Shown: positions 549 through 22,653 of the stretch, one piece after another
Layout of the letters: each line of letters starts with the position of its first letter
Position numbering within the stretch: the first letter of the stretch is position 1
From: a virus
Virus record (IMG/VR): IMGVR_UViG_3300021957_000286
Location: 1 to 24,834 of that record
Direction: 5' to 3' (one strand)
Length of the DNA: 24,834 nucleotides
Translations under genes and position numbers: made by a program
Notes under the pieces: generated by a model
Database searches by the model: none
Told to the model about the DNA's origin: nothing
The model's input: the letters and a program-made list of their open reading frames with translations, nothing else

Positions 549-1922
549 TTAATTCCAGTTTATATCCATAATTGATTTAGTGTCAGTTTGTTTATTTGAT
601 TCAGCTTCATTTAAAGCATCAATATGAGCTGGTTGTTCTGCTAAGTCAGTAATTTTCATTCTTGAATAATCAACATTCAAGAGCCAATTCTTTCTATCAG
701 CAGGATCGCCATATCTATTCTTTAATTGAGTAAATCTAACCATACCTTCATCTCTTAACTTATCGTTAGAGGTCATAGCAAAAAAGTAATCTGCAGTCAT
801 AGGAAGTCCGAAGGATTCAGAAACAGATGTTATATCAACATCAGCATCTGCAAAACCTTGACGGTTTGTTTGAGTAGCTGTAAGTACTGGTACATTGTAT
901 TCCATGGCCAAAGCTCTTAGTTCTTCCGCTGTCGCTTTTACTTGTTCATAGCTATTAGCATTCTTACCTATACTCATAGCTGTACATATATTTAAGTAAT
1001 CTATACACACTAAATCAGGAAAAAATTCTTTTTTTATCTCTAATTCTTTAAGTAATGATCTAAAATGGCCAGCATGAGCAGATTTAGTAGGGTATTCTTT
1101 AACAACTAATCTTCCTCTTGTTTTCATTTTAAGATTACTAAATCTTTTTAAGAAACTTTCTTTGCCTATAACATCTAAATCTTCAGAAGACAAGTTAAGT
1201 AAATTTTGATCTATTCTTTGAGCTATTTTTTCTTCAGCCATTTCTAAAGTAATATAAAGTACATTGTGGCCAGTTTCAATTAAACTACTTGCCATTGAAC
1301 ACATAAACAATGATTTACCAACACCAGTACCAGCCATGATGACACCTAATGTTTTAGAAGGGAATCCTCCTTTAAGAATATAGTCAAAGTGTTCTAAGCC
1401 TGAAGGTATTTTCTCTTCTTTTTTATTATAAAATTCCCATCTATCTTCAACATCTTCAATAAAATCGTGACCAACAGATTTGTCAAAGGATGTAGAAATA
1501 GCGTCTCTTAATAGATCAGGAAGTTCAGACTGTGTAGTCTTCTTATCGTCTCCGCCAATGACGTTTACAGCTTTATATACAGCATTAACAATAGCTTTTT
1601 CTTGACACCAATTCTCTGTCTTCTTAACTAGCCAATCAACTTTAGGTACCTCAGGTACTCTAGTTTCAGTAAAGGTGCTTATTTCTTTATATACACCTTC
1701 AGTAAGATCATTTCTACTTTCAACTTCAATCTTTAGAGCTTGGTATTGTGGTGACACATTATAACTTGTATAATACTTAGTTATTTCTTCAAGTATTATT
1801 CTTTCTGATGTATCGTTAAAATACTCTTGCTCTAAGAAAGGTAATACCTTTCTACAATACTCTTCATTTACAACTAAATTGTGTAGTATAGCTTTTCTAA
1901 GTTCATTAGAATCAATAGCCAT
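549..1922 (-). CDS. 41: Replicative DNA helicase, T4 gp41 (DnaB family)
   Basis: Hexameric 5'-3' helicase that unwinds the replication fork and pairs with the gp61 primase. The protein is 457 aa, close to T4 gp41 (about 475 aa). The N-terminal half is the primase-interacting helical domain. The RecA-like motor starts near residue 170, with Walker A GTGVGKS at 198-204, an ITLEMAEE motif at 224-231 and Walker B LVCIDYLN at 304-311. Further motor motifs (TATQTNRQG, then KNRYGDP) follow. The start codon ATG at 1922 shares its A with the TAA of the 44-aa ORF upstream (TAATG), pointing to translational coupling. In T4 the order is uvsX-40-41; here uvsX and 41 are separated by kdsB and small ORFs. 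Confidence 0.95.
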   Translation of the reverse strand: MAIDSNELRKAILHNLVVNEEYCRKVLPFLEQEYFNDTSERIILEEITKYYTSYNVSPQYQALKIEVESRNDLTEGVYKEISTFTETRVPEVPKVDWLVKKTENWCQEKAIVNAVYKAVNVIGGDDKKTTQSELPDLLRDAISTSFDKSVGHDFIEDVEDRWEFYNKKEEKIPSGLEHFDYILKGGFPSKTLGVIMAGTGVGKSLFMCSMASSLIETGHNVLYITLEMAEEKIAQRIDQNLLNLSSEDLDVIGKESFLKRFSNLKMKTRGRLVVKEYPTKSAHAGHFRSLLKELEIKKEFFPDLVCIDYLNICTAMSIGKNANSYEQVKATAEELRALAMEYNVPVLTATQTNRQGFADADVDITSVSESFGLPMTADYFFAMTSNDKLRDEGMVRFTQLKNRYGDPADRKNWLLNVDYSRMKITDLAEQPAHIDALNEAESNKQTDTKSIMDINWN

Positions 1923-2056
1923 TAAATTAATTTCCCCAACATCTCAGCAAAGAATATATATGCTCCATACGCATATACACAACAAATTACTACTTTTAAA
2001 GTTTTGTTTATACTATCATCAGCAGCATAAACCCAATCATGATATTTCTTTTTCAT
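1922..2056 (-). CDS. Small single-span membrane protein, 44 aa
   Basis: A 44-aa frame from an ATG at 2056 to a TAA at 1924-1922. The first 20 residues are polar and basic (MKKKYHDWVYAADDSINKTL). Residues 20-37 (KVVICCVYAYGAYIFFAE) look like one transmembrane helix, with a short tail. Its stop overlaps the gene 41 start (TAATG), and its own start overlaps the stop of a 19-aa ORF in the same way, so it sits in an unbroken chain of coupled frames. It fills the whole gap between kdsB and 41. The family is not recognised. The support is context, the exact junctions and the hydrophobic segment. Confidence 0.6.
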   Translation of the reverse strand: MKKKYHDWVYAADDSINKTLKVVICCVYAYGAYIFFAEMLGKLI

Positions 2057-4746: not shown

Positions 4747-5157
4747 TTAGTTAATCTTAATTACTTTAGGTTTTCTTTCTTCTGGAAGTTTAACTTCCAA
4801 ACTAATGACAAGAATTCCATCAGTAATATCAGCACCTGTAACTTCGGTGTACTCTGACAGCCTATAAGATTTTGTAAACTTACGAGCTGAAATGCCCTTG
4901 TGAATATACATTTCTTGTGGTCTTCGACGATCACGTTTACCTGTAATAGTAAGTACGTGTTCTTTAACTTCAATCGATATATCTTGTTTACTAAAACCAG
5001 CAACCGCAAGCTCAACTAAGTGTTCGTGATCACTCAATTTAACTACGTTATGCGGTGGATATGTATCTTTAGCATGTAAGCCGATGTTATCGATCTCGTT
5101 TAAGAGATGGTCGAAACCTAAAAAAGCGTTCCTTGGGAACATAAAAGTACCAGTCAT
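4747..5157 (-). CDS. hsp20: Small heat-shock protein Hsp20
   Basis: ATP-independent holdase of the alpha-crystallin family that binds unfolding proteins in the cytoplasm. An upstream ATG at 5169 lies before the strong GGAGG (5166-5162). That Shine-Dalgarno sequence is correctly spaced for the ATG at 5157, so I use 5157 (136 aa). After a short FMFPRNAFLGFDHLLNEID N-terminal arm, the alpha-crystallin domain spans about 35-125, with VELAVAGFSKQDISIEVK, LTITGKR and DGILVISLEV strands. The C-terminal PKVIKIN carries the IxI-type assembly motif. T4-like marine phages often carry hsp20. A TATAAATA late promoter lies about 60 nt upstream. Confidence 0.94.
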   Translation of the reverse strand: MTGTFMFPRNAFLGFDHLLNEIDNIGLHAKDTYPPHNVVKLSDHEHLVELAVAGFSKQDISIEVKEHVLTITGKRDRRRPQEMYIHKGISARKFTKSYRLSEYTEVTGADITDGILVISLEVKLPEERKPKVIKIN

Positions 5158-5216
5158 ATTTGCCTCCATTGTTTATGCAAGACGGTTTCAGATTTGCTTT
5201 CGCAACACCTGTATTT

Positions 5217-5224
5217 TATTTATA
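5217..5224 (-). promoter_or_regulatory. T4-type late promoter for hsp20
   Basis: Exact TATAAATA on the minus strand (5224-5217), overlapping the asnB stop codon region and about 60 nt before the hsp20 start. T4 late promoters, read by gp55 RNA polymerase with the sliding clamp, consist of this octamer alone. This would make hsp20 and the following 77-aa gene a late unit. Confidence 0.65.
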
Positions 5225-6905
5225 ATGATAAGTTAATTTTCTTAGCCCAAGTTTTAAAAAAAGCTGAAGCATAAAAAGTTTTTACTCCATCTTCACGGCG
5301 CCAATCAACAATATCATCTATTTTATTATATAGAGGTTCATGAATTTTTTTCAACATTTTTTCTCTAAATTTTTCTTGAGATTTTCTCCATTCGTTATCA
5401 GGAATAGACCATCCAGTTTTACCTTTGTTTAAAACATAATCTGGAATTTCATTTTTTAAACCAACTCTAGCTAAATACTTATATTCGCCGTTTTGAAAGT
5501 TATTTAAATCTCTGTTTTCCATTTTAATACCTGATGGAATGTCCATAACATATTTGTAATAACTTTGATTTAATAAAGGGAATCTTCCTTCCATTCCAAA
5601 GTAAGAACCAAACTTATCATTTCTAGTCAAAAAATCTTCTGACACTCTTGTTAACATTTCAACAAATAAACAATTGTTTAAATGATCAGGGCCAAATACT
5701 TTCTTTGGAAACCAACTTTCCATATATTGTGTATAACTATCAATGTTTATTTCTAATGATGGATCAGTAACTTTCATCCTCTTAGATGGTTTCCATGCTA
5801 TTGCATTATAATGATCTCTAAATGGATTTCCTGTATCTAGATATCTTCCATGAGTAACATATCCTGTATACATTTCATCTCCACCATCACCTGAATAAGT
5901 TACGATAGTTCCAGCTTCTCTTAAAATTTTATTAATATAAAAATAAGACGGAGTTGATTTGTTGAACACAGGTTGCTCTAAAGCATCAATAGTTTCATCA
6001 AGATTTTCAAAATAATTTTCTGGAGTAATTTCAATTTCTGTGTGATTAAAATTAAAATCGTTAGCATATTTTTTTGCTATTTGAGCATCTTCGTTAAAAT
6101 TAGAAGACTGAGGAGAATAGAAAGAAGTAAATGAATTCTTCTCATCTAAATACTTTGCTACACTTATACTATCCAAACCACCACTTAGAAAAATTCCTCT
6201 TTGTCTTACTCCTATTTTACTTTTGCTAATAGACTCAGACAATTTGTTTTTAAATTCTTCTATTGTTGAATCTCTCTCACTAAATTTATGATTGTCCCAC
6301 AAATTACCAATTGTTTTTTTCTTACTTTTACAATCATATGTTATGTGCTGTCCAGGAATAACTTTAAAAGTATCTTTAATTAAAGTAAGATAACCAGGAA
6401 CATAACCAAAATGTCTATATATTCCAAATGCAAATAAATCAAGCTGTGTACTTTTTCTTTCTAAAGCCTCAATTGAACTTGAAAATATAATTCCTTCATC
6501 TGTGTTTCTGTAGAAAAGAGGTTTCACACCAAAGTGATCTCTACAAATAGTTAATTTTCCATCTTTATAAAAAGCTAAAGACCACATTCCTTCTAGTTTA
6601 TCTAACCATTCAACACCATGTTCGTACAAACCTCTTGCTACTGCGTGTGTATCAATTTCATATTCAGGATAAAAATCTTTATGGTTATATATTGCACCGT
6701 TAAAAACTAATGCTGAATCTTTATACAAATATGGCTGTATAGATTCACCTACCTTGCCATATATTGCTAACAAGTTATGTCCTAAAGATACATTTTCATT
6801 TGTCCAAGTAGAAGATCCATCAGGACCTCTCCTCTTAGTATGATGCATCATTCTATAGATTCTAGCTAATTGATTACCCTTAGTAATACCATTTATTCCA
6901 CACAT
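5220..6905 (-). CDS. asnB: Asparagine synthetase, glutamine-hydrolysing (AsnB type)
   Basis: Transfers ammonia from glutamine to aspartate with ATP, giving asparagine. The length of 561 aa matches bacterial AsnB (about 554). The N-terminal class II glutaminase has the Cys2 nucleophile (MCGI), RRGPDGS (25-31), NGAIYNH (69-75, usually NGEIYNH) and CRDHFGVKPLFY (121-132). The synthetase half has the pyrophosphate loop SGGLDS (241-246) and SGDGGDE (338-344), both intact. The start overlaps the upstream 54-aa ORF by 13 nt. Relatives amidate surface-sugar precursors, so with kdsB nearby a role in cell-surface chemistry is possible. Intact catalytic residues make an active enzyme likely. Confidence 0.92.
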   Translation of the reverse strand: MCGINGITKGNQLARIYRMMHHTKRRGPDGSSTWTNENVSLGHNLLAIYGKVGESIQPYLYKDSALVFNGAIYNHKDFYPEYEIDTHAVARGLYEHGVEWLDKLEGMWSLAFYKDGKLTICRDHFGVKPLFYRNTDEGIIFSSSIEALERKSTQLDLFAFGIYRHFGYVPGYLTLIKDTFKVIPGQHITYDCKSKKKTIGNLWDNHKFSERDSTIEEFKNKLSESISKSKIGVRQRGIFLSGGLDSISVAKYLDEKNSFTSFYSPQSSNFNEDAQIAKKYANDFNFNHTEIEITPENYFENLDETIDALEQPVFNKSTPSYFYINKILREAGTIVTYSGDGGDEMYTGYVTHGRYLDTGNPFRDHYNAIAWKPSKRMKVTDPSLEINIDSYTQYMESWFPKKVFGPDHLNNCLFVEMLTRVSEDFLTRNDKFGSYFGMEGRFPLLNQSYYKYVMDIPSGIKMENRDLNNFQNGEYKYLARVGLKNEIPDYVLNKGKTGWSIPDNEWRKSQEKFREKMLKKIHEPLYNKIDDIVDWRREDGVKTFYASAFFKTWAKKINLSL

Positions 6906-7058: not shown

Positions 7059-7196
7059 TTATTTACCTTGTCCTCTATATCTTTTAAATGAACGTCTCTT
7101 ATGTTTATTCAACATACATTTTGAGTGTCTTTTTCTTCCTATTGATGTTTTTTTTGGTATTGATTCGTGAATGTAAGTGCCTGCTGCTTTCGCCAT
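7059..7196 (-). CDS. Small basic protein, 45 aa
   Basis: The frame extends to an ATG at 7244, but that part runs through the tmRNA 3' end. The ATG at 7196 has a clean AGGAG 5 nt upstream, so I start there. The protein is rich in Lys, Arg, His and Ser (residues 10-45 contain SIPKKTSIGRKRHSKC, KHKRRSFKRYRGQGK), like a nucleic-acid-binding or ribosome-associated peptide. It follows the tmRNA directly and may be carried on the same late transcript. The function is unknown. Confidence 0.7.
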   Translation of the reverse strand: MAKAAGTYIHESIPKKTSIGRKRHSKCMLNKHKRRSFKRYRGQGK

Positions 7197-7216
7197 AATA
7201 ACTCCTATAATATAAA

Positions 7217-7668
7217 GGCACTTCTGTTGCCAGGTAGTACCCACCCCGCTAATCGCTACGAAACCGATTAGGCTGAAGCTCTCATTGCTTCTTCAACAAG
7301 CGAGACACGCTCTACTTGCATTGGAAGAATTGAAGCAAACGTAGATGGTTTTTTGCCATTTACATAAATTGTTATCTATCTCAAATAATCTTTTCACAGT
7401 ATGTCGATCCTATTTCAGCCCCATAAGAATTATTTGCAAAGGTCCTCATATTTTGTTGAATGTATTCTATGTTTAGATTTGTCACCTTGTAAATATTTTG
7501 GAACAGCATTTTTTATTTCTTGTTGCTTTTTCCATTTCTCAAAGCGTTTAAAAATTTTTCTAAATATATCTCTCATCCTCTTTTGCCTCTCAAATAATTA
7601 TGGTGGAGCTGTCGGGTACCGCCCCCGAGTCCATTCCTATTAGTTCAATTATCGTCATCGACTTCTAA
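7217..7668 (-). ncRNA. ssrA: Two-piece, circularly permuted tmRNA
   Basis: tmRNA rescues stalled ribosomes: alanine is loaded on its tRNA-like end and a short internal frame tags the nascent protein. On the minus strand the acceptor piece comes first. It has a T arm at 7628-7612 (stem TCGGG/CCCGA, 7-nt loop GGCGGTA), then CAGCTCC, then A and CCA ending at 7601. The coding piece starts at 7422 with GGGGCTGAAATAGGATCGAC, the classic tmRNA 5' end. GGGGCUG pairs with CAGCUCC over 7 bp with a G-U third pair, the alanine identity element. Acceptor before coding piece is the order found in alphaproteobacteria; the non-TTC T loop also fits them. Downstream, CTAATCG/CGATTAG (7269-7263 and 7253-7247) and GGCA/TGCC (7231-7228 and 7220-7217) form hairpins. 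The 5' end at 7668 is estimated from the TATAAATA box. Confidence 0.9.
7430..7576 (-). CDS. 48-aa ORF inside the tmRNA intervening segment
   Basis: The 178-nt segment between the acceptor CCA (7601) and the coding-piece 5' end (7422) is mostly filled by one frame. It starts at an ATG at 7576, with AGAGG 9 nt upstream, and ends at a TAA 7 nt before the coding piece. The product is strongly basic, opening MRDIFRKIFKRFEKWKKQQE and ending HSTKYEDLCK. No family was recognised. It would be read from the unprocessed precursor or destroyed on processing. It may be a real phage gene, or a chance frame in A+T-rich spacer; 48 codons with a good ribosome site make chance less likely. Confidence 0.5.
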   Translation of the reverse strand: MRDIFRKIFKRFEKWKKQQEIKNAVPKYLQGDKSKHRIHSTKYEDLCK

Positions 7669-7673
7669 CTATA

Positions 7674-7681
7674 TATTTATA
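7674..7681 (-). promoter_or_regulatory. T4-type late promoter for the tmRNA gene
   Basis: Exact TATAAATA on the minus strand (7681-7674). Transcription would begin near 7668, about 40 nt before the GGAC that leads into the T arm, leaving room for the 5' strand of the P2 helix. This implies that the phage makes its tmRNA late in infection. Confidence 0.65.
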
Positions 7682-7717
7682 GTGAAATTTTAGTTTTTTT
7701 TTAAAGATAAATATATT

Positions 7718-8068
7718 ATGAAAAAAGCGAAGAAGTTTAGAGTATATGTTACATATTTTCCCGATGGAAGATATTATATTGGATTTTCTCAAAAAAACGA
7801 GAAACAATATGAAAAATATTATGGATCCTCAAAAGAAGTTTTAGAATACGACAAAACTCTTTTACAAAAAGACACAATTGTAATATTTGACAAAAAGAAT
7901 GAAGCTAAGATGCAAGAATTGTTACTACAATGGTGGAACAGACATGATCCTAATTGTATAAATGATATGTTGAATATTAGATTAAGATCTAAGTATCTTG
8001 ATGACTTTGATCCAATACATTGGAGTCCTCGAGACATTCGTCAATTGGAATTAGATTTCCATAATTAG
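7718..8068 (+). CDS. GIY-YIG-like nuclease, putative homing endonuclease
   Basis: The only plus-strand gene of the window, 116 aa, divergent from the tmRNA. The N-terminus has VYV (9-11) and YYIG (19-22) with 7 residues between, then YYGSSKE (34-40), the layout of a GIY-YIG domain. A glutamate-bearing helix (NEAKMQELLLQWWNR, 61-75) follows and could supply the metal-binding Glu. The C-terminal part (IRLRSKYLDDFDP and SPRDIRQLELDF) may bind DNA. T4-like phages carry many free-standing GIY-YIG homing endonucleases. Isolation on the opposite strand beside an RNA gene fits a mobile endonuclease. The first signature is VYV rather than GIY, so activity is not certain. Confidence 0.6.
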   Translation: MKKAKKFRVYVTYFPDGRYYIGFSQKNEKQYEKYYGSSKEVLEYDKTLLQKDTIVIFDKKNEAKMQELLLQWWNRHDPNCINDMLNIRLRSKYLDDFDPIHWSPRDIRQLELDFHN

Positions 8069-21146: not shown

Positions 21147-22181
21147 CTATTTATAAATCTTATTATGTGTACTGTTACATTTTATAAAAGTTGTACATTT
21201 ACATATTTCTTTTAAGGCTTCTGCTCCTACATAAGTACAAGAAGATCTTAAACCACCTAATATTTCTTGAACTGTAGGAGTTAAAGGACCTTTAAAATCA
21301 ATTGTTACTATCTTACCTTCAGAAGCTTTATAATGAGCTAACCCTTCATTATATTTTTCTTGAGCTTTCATAGATGACATTCCATAAAATTCTTTTACCA
21401 TCTTTCCATCAATAGTTTTTAATTCGCCTCCAGATTCTTTATGACCTGCTAGCATTCCTCCTAACATAACAAAGTGAGCTCCTCCTCCAAATGCTTTTGC
21501 AACATCTCCTGAAGTTGTACATCCACCGTCTCCTATTATATGTCCTCCAATACCATTAGCAGCATCAGCACATTCTATAATTGCAGATAGTTGAGGATAT
21601 CCAACACCAGTTTGTATTCTTGTTGTACATACACTTCCAGGACCAATACCTATTTTTATGATGTCAGCTCCAGCTAGTAATAATTCTTGAGTTTGTTCTG
21701 CTGTACAAACATTACCAGCTACAATAATTGTATCAGGATTCGAATCTCTTAATCTTTTTATAAAATTAACAAATCTTTCTGTGTATCCATTTGCTACATC
21801 TATGTTTAACCATTTAATTGTATTCTTAGGCAATTTACCCTTTAACATTTTCCATTTTTGTACATCTAAATCTGTTATTCCAGTTGTATAACCTATGTTG
21901 TTTCTAGGTTTTGAAAAAAATAAATCGTATAATGTTTCAACATCATAATGTTTATGTAAGAAAGTTAACATTTTAAACTTATCTAAAATTTTACTTATTT
22001 CAATTGTACCCGTTGTATCCATGTTAGAAGCTATTATCGGAACGCCTTTCCATTTAGCGTTACTATTTAAAAAAGTATAAGATCTTTCAAGGTTTACTTG
22101 AGATCTTGATTTAAGAGTACTTCTTTTAGGTCTTATTAAAACATCTTCAAAGTTTAATTTTATATCATTTTCAATTCGCAT
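21147..22181 (-). CDS. guaC: GMP reductase
   Basis: Converts GMP to IMP with NADPH, feeding guanine nucleotides back into the purine pool. It matches E. coli GuaC along its length: MRIENDIKLNFEDVLIRPKR start, IASNMDT, IDVANGY, the catalytic loop GIGPGSVCTTR with Cys185 (E. coli Cys186), DGGCTT, MLGGMLAGHKESGG, FYGMSS and GLRSSCTYVGA. Two in-frame ATGs exist. The second, at 22181, is 7 nt after GGGAG and aligns with the E. coli start, so I use it (344 aa). The lack of CBS domains and the CTTRIQTGVGYPQ loop mark a GMP reductase rather than IMP dehydrogenase. It overlaps the phosphoribosyltransferase gene by 11 nt. Confidence 0.94.
   Translation of the reverse strand: MRIENDIKLNFEDVLIRPKRSTLKSRSQVNLERSYTFLNSNAKWKGVPIIASNMDTTGTIEISKILDKFKMLTFLHKHYDVETLYDLFFSKPRNNIGYTTGITDLDVQKWKMLKGKLPKNTIKWLNIDVANGYTERFVNFIKRLRDSNPDTIIVAGNVCTAEQTQELLLAGADIIKIGIGPGSVCTTRIQTGVGYPQLSAIIECADAANGIGGHIIGDGGCTTSGDVAKAFGGGAHFVMLGGMLAGHKESGGELKTIDGKMVKEFYGMSSMKAQEKYNEGLAHYKASEGKIVTIDFKGPLTPTVQEILGGLRSSCTYVGAEALKEICKCTTFIKCNSTHNKIYK
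21148..21155 (-). promoter_or_regulatory. T4-type late promoter candidate before the 67-aa membrane protein
   Basis: Exact TATAAATA on the minus strand (21155-21148), overlapping the last codons of guaC. The 66 nt from there to the membrane-protein start hold a small TTGCT/AGCAA hairpin (near 21124-21110) followed by a T-rich stretch, and no other gene. Confidence 0.5.
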
Positions 22182-22653
22182 TTTCATTCTCCCATGGAAA
22201 AATTATCCAGTCTCCTGACTCGTATACTTTTCCTGTATAATCTGATTCAACTGATGCACTTACTCGTTCGTATAAACTTGCAAATTTATAATCAAATATT
22301 AAATTATGTCTATTGCTTTTTATGTTGGAATCAATATATTTAAATGTATCACTAGTATCGTTAATATCATCAACAAAAAGTACTTTTTGTGATTGTGTAA
22401 AATCTACAGCAACATCAAAGAAGTGTTGAAAACCCATTGCATTAGATACTAATTTATCTCTCAATCTTAGATCTAATGGAAGAAAAGGTATATCCATAGT
22501 GTGAGATATCATTATACCTGGAACAGCTCCTCCTCTTACAATTCCTACTATAAAATCTGGAATCCATTTACTCTTGTATACATCTAAGACGATCTTCATA
22601 TGAAGATCGTCTATTTCATGCCAATTTATTTTGTCATAATTATGCATTTGCAT
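22171..22653 (-). CDS. Purine-type phosphoribosyltransferase
   Basis: Joins a purine base to PRPP to give the nucleotide. The length is 160 aa, near E. coli Gpt (152). The PRPP loop is VLFVDDINDTSDT (91-103). An upstream PDFIVGIVRGGAVPG (32-46) gives the pyrophosphate loop, and the C-terminal DWIIFPWE (148-155) is seen in Gpt-like enzymes. The overlapping guaC suggests the base is guanine, hypoxanthine or xanthine. The exact substrate cannot be fixed by eye. Start is ATG at 22653; a second ATG two codons on is possible. Confidence 0.87.
   Translation of the reverse strand: MQMHNYDKINWHEIDDLHMKIVLDVYKSKWIPDFIVGIVRGGAVPGIMISHTMDIPFLPLDLRLRDKLVSNAMGFQHFFDVAVDFTQSQKVLFVDDINDTSDTFKYIDSNIKSNRHNLIFDYKFASLYERVSASVESDYTGKVYESGDWIIFPWENENAN

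Follow-up and report, generated by a model that had tools for sequence, protein, structure and literature searches.

A two-piece tmRNA gene of a marine T4-like phage that probably encloses a small protein gene and lies behind a late-type promoter

Analysis of a stretch of viral DNA over its whole length of 24,834 nucleotides (hereafter the window) points, with good confidence, to a functional two-piece tmRNA gene of a marine T4-like phage, driven by a late promoter and holding a second gene inside it. A preliminary description made from the sequence had proposed a permuted tmRNA of the alphaproteobacterial type in a T4-like phage. This was borne out by Rfam, ARAGORN and covariation, and every element that it had named was found in place, on the minus strand; the nested protein gene and an unusual tag had been overlooked. 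Transcription from the phage late promoter, timed presumably by a gp55-type apparatus, would yield a precursor consisting of acceptor piece, intervening segment and coding piece. A stem between the ends of the intervening segment would extend the acceptor stem and keep the two halves together, and an RNase P cut before GGGG combined with 3' trimming to CCA would release the mature two-piece molecule. Once charged, and with host SmpB and AlaRS, this RNA would rescue ribosomes stalled late in infection on degrading messages, and the nascent chains would receive a phage-specific tag of 29 amino acids. As the intervening segment has the make-up of a complete small mRNA, with a Shine-Dalgarno sequence and a 48-aa gene whose stop lies 7 nt short of the coding piece and predicted RNase P site, the late transcript would give both a small protein and a tmRNA. 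The intervening segment of permuted tmRNAs has so far been viewed as discarded; here one gene appears to encode a rescue RNA and a protein. The features are listed in Table 1.

Table 1. Features of the tmRNA locus, in positions of the window
Feature	Position	Strand	Basis or remark
Divergent upstream gene, 116 aa, GIY-YIG-like N-terminus YVTYFPDGRYYIGFSQK	7718..8068	+	by eye; weak profile support
T4-type late promoter octamer TATAAATA	7674..7681	-	exact match; no TTGACA-like -35 at 15-19 nt spacing
tmRNA acceptor piece	7601..7665 (5' end approximate)	-	ARAGORN, Rfam, T-stem covariation
T arm and acceptor half, GGACTCGGGGGCGGTACCCGA-CAGCTCC-A-CCA	7632-7601	-	T arm 7632-7612; acceptor half CAGCTCC 7611-7605; discriminator A; encoded CCA ends 7601
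Intervening segment, 178 nt	7423..7600	-	from CCA to 5' end of coding piece
Intervening-segment stem, 5' strand AATTATTTGAGAGG	7586..7599	-	duplex, full-length fold; contains Shine-Dalgarno AGAGG
Shine-Dalgarno sequence AGAGG of nested gene	7590-7586	-	9 nt before ATG
Nested protein gene, 48 aa, MRDIFRKIFKRFEKWKKQQEIKNAVPKYLQGDKSKHRIHSTKYEDLCK	7430..7576	-	homologues nested and free-standing; family motif
Intervening-segment stem, 3' strand CCTTTGCAAATAATT	7428..7442	-	duplex, full-length fold; overlaps last codons and stop of nested gene
tmRNA coding piece, mRNA-like domain, starting with GGGGCTGAAATAGGATCGAC	7212..7422	-	3' end from Rfam match
Acceptor half GGGGCTG of coding piece	7422-7416	-	
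Tag reading frame, 29 aa and stop, GKKPSTFASILPMQVERVSLVEEAMRASA*	7268..7357	-	ARAGORN; conserved in relatives
Downstream gene, 45 aa, PHROG 17967	7059..7196	-	also in pelagiphages and Melnitz

The Rfam alpha_tmRNA model RF01849 matches the window with 79.2 bits (E = 3.2e-20; gathering score 50), RF04321 matches it with 52.2 bits (gathering score 47), and ARAGORN calls a permuted tmRNA at 7177-7696. The acceptor piece lies upstream of the coding piece, and the ends of the two pieces pair over 7 bp (GGGGCTG/CAGCTCC), as had been described, in an acceptor stem that includes G3-U70. Covariation between the pieces, whose absence the preliminary description had named among the refuting observations, was found in 212 distinct viral copies: in the acceptor stem, pairs 5 and 6, or more broadly 4-6, covary through several standard pair types, G3-U70 is invariant, and in the T stem pairs 1 and 2 covary with zero mispairs. 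The closest relative, L130, whose asparagine synthetase is 89% identical and whose regional DNA is about 81-90% identical to the window, scores 94 bits with RF01849 and 67.9 bits with RF04321. Because of this score, and because two pairs of its acceptor stem (GGGGGCG/CGCCUCC) are altered on both sides relative to the window, chance resemblance is excluded; taken with the covariation and the codon comparisons below, the relative also leads to rejection of a pseudogene. Over 211 nt the coding piece is 95% identical to that of L130 and 79% identical to that of L275. Judged from these patterns, the tmRNA is very likely functional. A search for an SmpB gene in the window and in 19 related contigs found none, and SmpB presumably comes from the host. 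A group I intron or homing ORF within the tmRNA was considered and rejected, the T loop being intact and free of intron structure. ARAGORN misses the permuted tmRNA of L130 (5084-5510) despite its Rfam score; phage surveys relying on ARAGORN only will therefore undercount such genes.

The protein encoded in the intervening segment belongs to a family, here called A, whose members are nested likewise in L215, L165 and phage Melnitz and are free-standing in five other loci (L249, L119, L137, L143 and L162). A C-terminal motif, S-HR-H-[ST][KR]YEDLC[KQ], is common to the window, the nested copy of L215 and the free-standing members. Since the frame has diverged, its synonymous sites being saturated against L215 (pS 0.83, pN 0.33), and its length stands out from shuffled sequences at p = 0.015, the support for the gene of the window comes partly from synteny and the family motif. 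A different frame, of 35 aa and preceded by AAAGGAG, is nested in L130. A family search with the nested proteins for a function gave no significant match. The frame is not that of a homing endonuclease, as it lies in the permutation segment and has no endonuclease match in Pfam or PHROG.

Comparison across phages and hosts places this gene in a broader setting. The viral loci are the matches listed for exact T-arm patterns in metagenomic contigs, which may be redundant, and the fractions given here therefore describe this sample and not population frequencies. Intervening segments reach 266 nt among the 212 distinct viral copies, and at least 41 of these hold an ORF with a diverged homologue (less than 90% identical) at another locus, 41 being a filter count that includes a few short frames which may not be genes. 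In 43 of the 95 segments of at least 90 nt, an ATG-initiated ORF is longer than in dinucleotide shuffles at p<=0.05, about 5 being expected. Host segments measure 4-12 nt in SAR11 and mostly 22-49 nt in other Alphaproteobacteria (median about 30, maximum 139), and none of 141 contains an ORF of at least 25 aa. The nested genes fall into about ten families in a list compiled after inspection. Where codons could be compared (families B, C, D, E, G and H), dN is well below dS: 0.031 against 1.33 in family D (L126/L106), 0.04 against 0.91 in C (L220/L185), 0.05 against 0.51 in B (L191/L115), 0.046 against 0.66 in H, and 0.20 against 1.32 in E. These codon comparisons indicate that the nested genes encode proteins under purifying selection in their families, the case being weaker for the member in the window.

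Free-standing genes of families A, C, D, E and J were also observed in other phages, near the tmRNA and on the same strand, in many cases no more than a few hundred bases away. In L192 and L308 the family-E gene is nested, and in Melnitz it is the annotated gene just upstream of ssrA; the family-A frame of Melnitz, whose protein begins MFKWLSKTRLVVITRDYFRERN, sits unannotated inside the annotated SsrA feature. Conserved protein genes occupy the segment in numerous marine phages, so that small phage genes of this class appear to have been missed within RNA annotations. In the open-access literature, as distinct from subscription papers, we found no account of a tmRNA intervening segment containing protein genes, and the nested 48-aa gene is previously unreported. 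Elsewhere in the window (1922-2056, minus strand), a free-standing 44-aa gene, MKKKYHDWVYAADDSINKTLKVVICCVYAYGAYIFFAEMLGKLI, is 62% homologous to the gene nested in the tmRNAs of L086, L116 and L084.

Why genes should lie in this position can be read in more than one way. The plainer reading, to which we give more weight than to any coupling of nested gene and tmRNA and which is somewhat probable, is that the segment is an insertion-tolerant slot and that nested genes are passengers on a strong tmRNA promoter in compact genomes, unlinked to tmRNA function. Unrelated families occupy the same slot, and five of them also stand free nearby, as this reading leads one to expect; yet start and stop fit the segment ends tightly and the Shine-Dalgarno sequence is often buried in a stem, which suggests more than tolerance. 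In the window the two ends of the segment form a duplex of -11.4 kcal/mol that extends the acceptor stem. The fold of the whole precursor is of weak significance (z -1.47), and no conclusion here depends on it. Among viral segments of at least 40 nt, 92% pair their own ends at -8 kcal/mol or better, against 22% with ends swapped between copies; for nested segments only, the closing stem is retained in 83% against 12%. The nested frame stops 1-12 nt short of the predicted RNase P site in families A (window and L215), C, D, E, G and H. In B and F the stop is the TAG of GAAATAG, 13 nt into the coding piece, and in the family-A copies of Melnitz, L165, L211, L244 and L250 it falls 42 nt inside.

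This overlap of gene ends and stem raises the possibility, doubtful as we see it, that translation of the nested gene competes with maturation and that the two are mutually exclusive. Shine-Dalgarno sequence and gene end would lie in the stem needed for RNase P cutting, ribosomes on the nested message would hold the precursor open, and tmRNA would be made only under a shortage of free ribosomes; with a stop located within the coding piece, cutting would create a non-stop RNA to be rescued by the tmRNA itself. By inspection, a Shine-Dalgarno-like sequence occupies the 5' stem strand in families A, B, C (first start), E, F and H, and the positions of the stops and the retention of closing stems in nested segments agree with such a coupling. 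The stem, however, is also present in hosts and in copies without nested genes and may thus be purely structural, families D and G have the Shine-Dalgarno sequence outside the stem or a weak stem, and the overlap of gene end and stem also follows from tight packing. A bolder extension, rather unlikely as a whole, would make the cut-out segment a standing site for small genes, with a precursor that senses free ribosomes and yields either protein or rescue RNA, and with a 29-aa tag that replaces the ClpXP-type tag and sends proteins to another fate. Whichever holds, the system is suited to the study of competition between translation and RNase P on one RNA, and to asking what phages gain from a ribosome rescue of their own late in infection.

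The preliminary description had also placed the gene under late control, on account of an exact octamer, TATAAATA, just upstream of it. The octamer is present, 40 nt before the GGAC of the T arm. At least 120 viral stretches match the pattern of TATAAATA 25-55 nt before a T arm; the fractions that follow come from loci retrieved by the T arm alone, which avoids a bias keyed to the octamer. It lies within 75 nt of the T arm in 75 of 106 viral copies, nearly always 34-42 nt and mostly 34-40 nt before GGAC, and in 10 of 39 copies of a second set retrieved in the same manner. Before host tmRNAs it was found in none of 114-116 alphaproteobacterial copies and in one of 27 from the SAR11 order, or 1/141 in total. 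By number alone the octamer shows no enrichment in the window (4 occurrences against an expected 5.9); all four nevertheless lie on the transcribed strand, no more than 80 nt ahead of a minus-strand gene, the corresponding figure for permuted versions of the octamer being 12.6%. Homologues of gp45, gp44, gp62 and gp43 are present in the window, and gp55 and gp33 were not located in this fragment. When 16 larger whole contigs, including L114 and L259, were typed for promoter and T4 Gp23 (the gp23 capsid gene), the latter turned up in 7 of the 10 octamer-bearing contigs, in 7/7 of those above 110 kb, and in 0/6 without it, the last being weaker evidence because these contigs measure 64-100 kb.

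Placement and co-occurrence with Gp23 thus uphold the late element, but control by a late promoter alone is not the usual state, as 59 of 85 octamers double as a -10 box. In these 59 octamer-bearing viral copies a perfect TTGACA stands 16-18 nt before the octamer, against 1/255 at shifted positions. A sigma-70 -10 box resembles the octamer, which counts against a late assignment, and the published account assigns the Melnitz ssrA to an early promoter (PMC9004378). That the octamer is merely such a -10 box and the tmRNA early or constitutive, as proposed for Melnitz, is nevertheless quite improbable: where TTGACA is present, the TATA-octamer is TATAAATA in 59 of 61 copies and TATAAT in none, the octamer co-occurs with Gp23, and no -35 match was found in the window at 15-19 nt or, by direct reading of the sequence, in L275. 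Since the octamer is locked behind TTGACA, most of the phage promoters look composite, the sigma-70 -10 box and the T4 late octamer being the same element; since the window and L275 lack a -35 box, the promoter looks late only in their lineage. Composite early and late control in most phages, with late control only in the lineage of the window, is the best reading of these promoter sequences, and it revises the published early-promoter view.

The tag of the window has atypical ends, G... and ...ASA. L130 encodes the same GKKPSTFASILPMQVERVSLVEEAMRASA, and L275, L277 and L346 encode a related tag, AKKSTTFASILPVKVERVSLVQEALAASA. Between the window and L275, pS is 0.53 and pN 0.19 over the tag, which is why the peptide is probably selected and, within one phage lineage, the 29-aa tag probably conserved at the amino-acid level. 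Among the viral tags sampled, most resemble ANDN...LAA, and the four SAR11 copies taken in full encode tags of the ANDNRLAxAA type. A degenerate pattern for the tag core FASILPMQVER had no match in GTDB genomes and among viral contigs recovered L131 alone, which is part of the contig that also contains L130; a tblastn search of phage records with the related tag gave no match. An alternative tag frame, AKNHLRLLQFFQCK, was rejected, as it is the 29-aa frame that L275 conserves and that fits the A at -4 in the alpha consensus. Mollicutes have long tags with a single alanine at the end, and there Lon reads them, which offers a lead only. Tags of 19-31 aa are encoded by other viral permuted tmRNAs (L156, L192, L268, L231 and L271), some of which have standard ends around an inserted middle, e.g. 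ANDNALSNVTFVDFSAPVTAVNEDFALAA.

Simple capture of the gene from a host, as had been supposed, found no support: the tag has no counterpart among the hosts sampled or the GTDB representative genomes, matches between the coding piece and hosts extend over 20-36 nt only, and the gene is a member of a widespread phage lineage. That it is a decaying remnant of a captured host tmRNA, which the odd tag, an Rfam score below nearly all SAR11 host copies (175-240 bits) and the absence of SmpB from the phage contigs examined might suggest, is highly improbable given a coding piece conserved in two relatives, compensatory changes in the acceptor stem and a tag frame retained with excess synonymous change.

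Permuted tmRNAs in marine T4-like phages are already known; the promoter placement, the nested genes and the odd tag go beyond what was described. A two-piece tmRNA of the alphaproteobacterial type was described in phage Melnitz of OM43 (Methylophilales) (Buchholz et al. 2022, PMC9004378), which also lists the Pelagibacter phage Mosig as a riboswitch-bearing isolate that encodes a tmRNA and counts two-piece tmRNAs as 53 of 133 unique phage tmRNA structures, mostly marine. Melnitz resembles the window as a marine T4-like myophage with a permuted tmRNA of this type, TATAAATA upstream and a nested family-A gene, but it has a standard tag, ANDNYVPVDYALAA, a TTGACA -35 box and a reported glutamine riboswitch (PMC9004378); the accessible part of that report makes no mention of a gene nested in ssrA. 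Alphaproteobacterial and SAR11 tmRNAs (RF01849/RF04321) share with the window the T arm, the G3-U70 acceptor stem, the encoded CCA, the permuted order and a tagged coding piece, whereas their segments are short, without ORFs of at least 25 aa, and the late octamer is absent save in the single copy noted above. The tmRNAs of mycobacteriophages and phage G are phage-carried but one-piece, without an intervening segment, and the DS6A molecule, also phage-carried, has little beyond the tRNA-like part, being neither permuted nor provided with such a segment (PMC4131195). A permuted tmRNA with a tRNA-Ala gene in its intervening sequence (PMC11915505) has a gene inside the segment, as in the window. 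That case concerns a tRNA gene in one nominally archaeal assembly, whereas the type seen here concerns protein genes in many phages; the accessible part of the report mentions only the tRNA gene and a repeat in the segment.

As to the surroundings of the tmRNA, the divergent 116-aa gene adjoins it in all five loci with a 29-aa tag and in no other locus, and the downstream 45-aa gene hints at a SAR11-like or similar marine host for the phage. The window carries several host-like metabolic genes, all on the minus strand: an asparagine-synthetase-like gene (5220-6905), Hsp20 (4747-5169; PHROG 432), a CMP-KDO synthetase-like protein recognised by eye (2117-2824) and a dehydrogenase (21147-22187; PHROG 9582). 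Permuted tmRNAs were also observed in other phages. Pelagiphage HTVC008M has one that is unannotated in its record (L498, about 1480-1689; KC465899.1 near 145180), with the tag ANFNEYALAA, a short intervening segment and no exact TATAAATA directly upstream. The Sinorhizobium jumbo phage Phosso (L501, 1424-2113) has an intervening segment of 410 nt with no obvious ORF. In the Ruegeria phage vB_RpoS-V10 (L499, 843-1276), a GOLLD RNA lies just upstream of the permuted tmRNA. Finally, one genome of the SAR11 order (G031, contigs C33 and C55) carries two full-length alpha tmRNA copies, scoring 234.1 and 221.6 bits.
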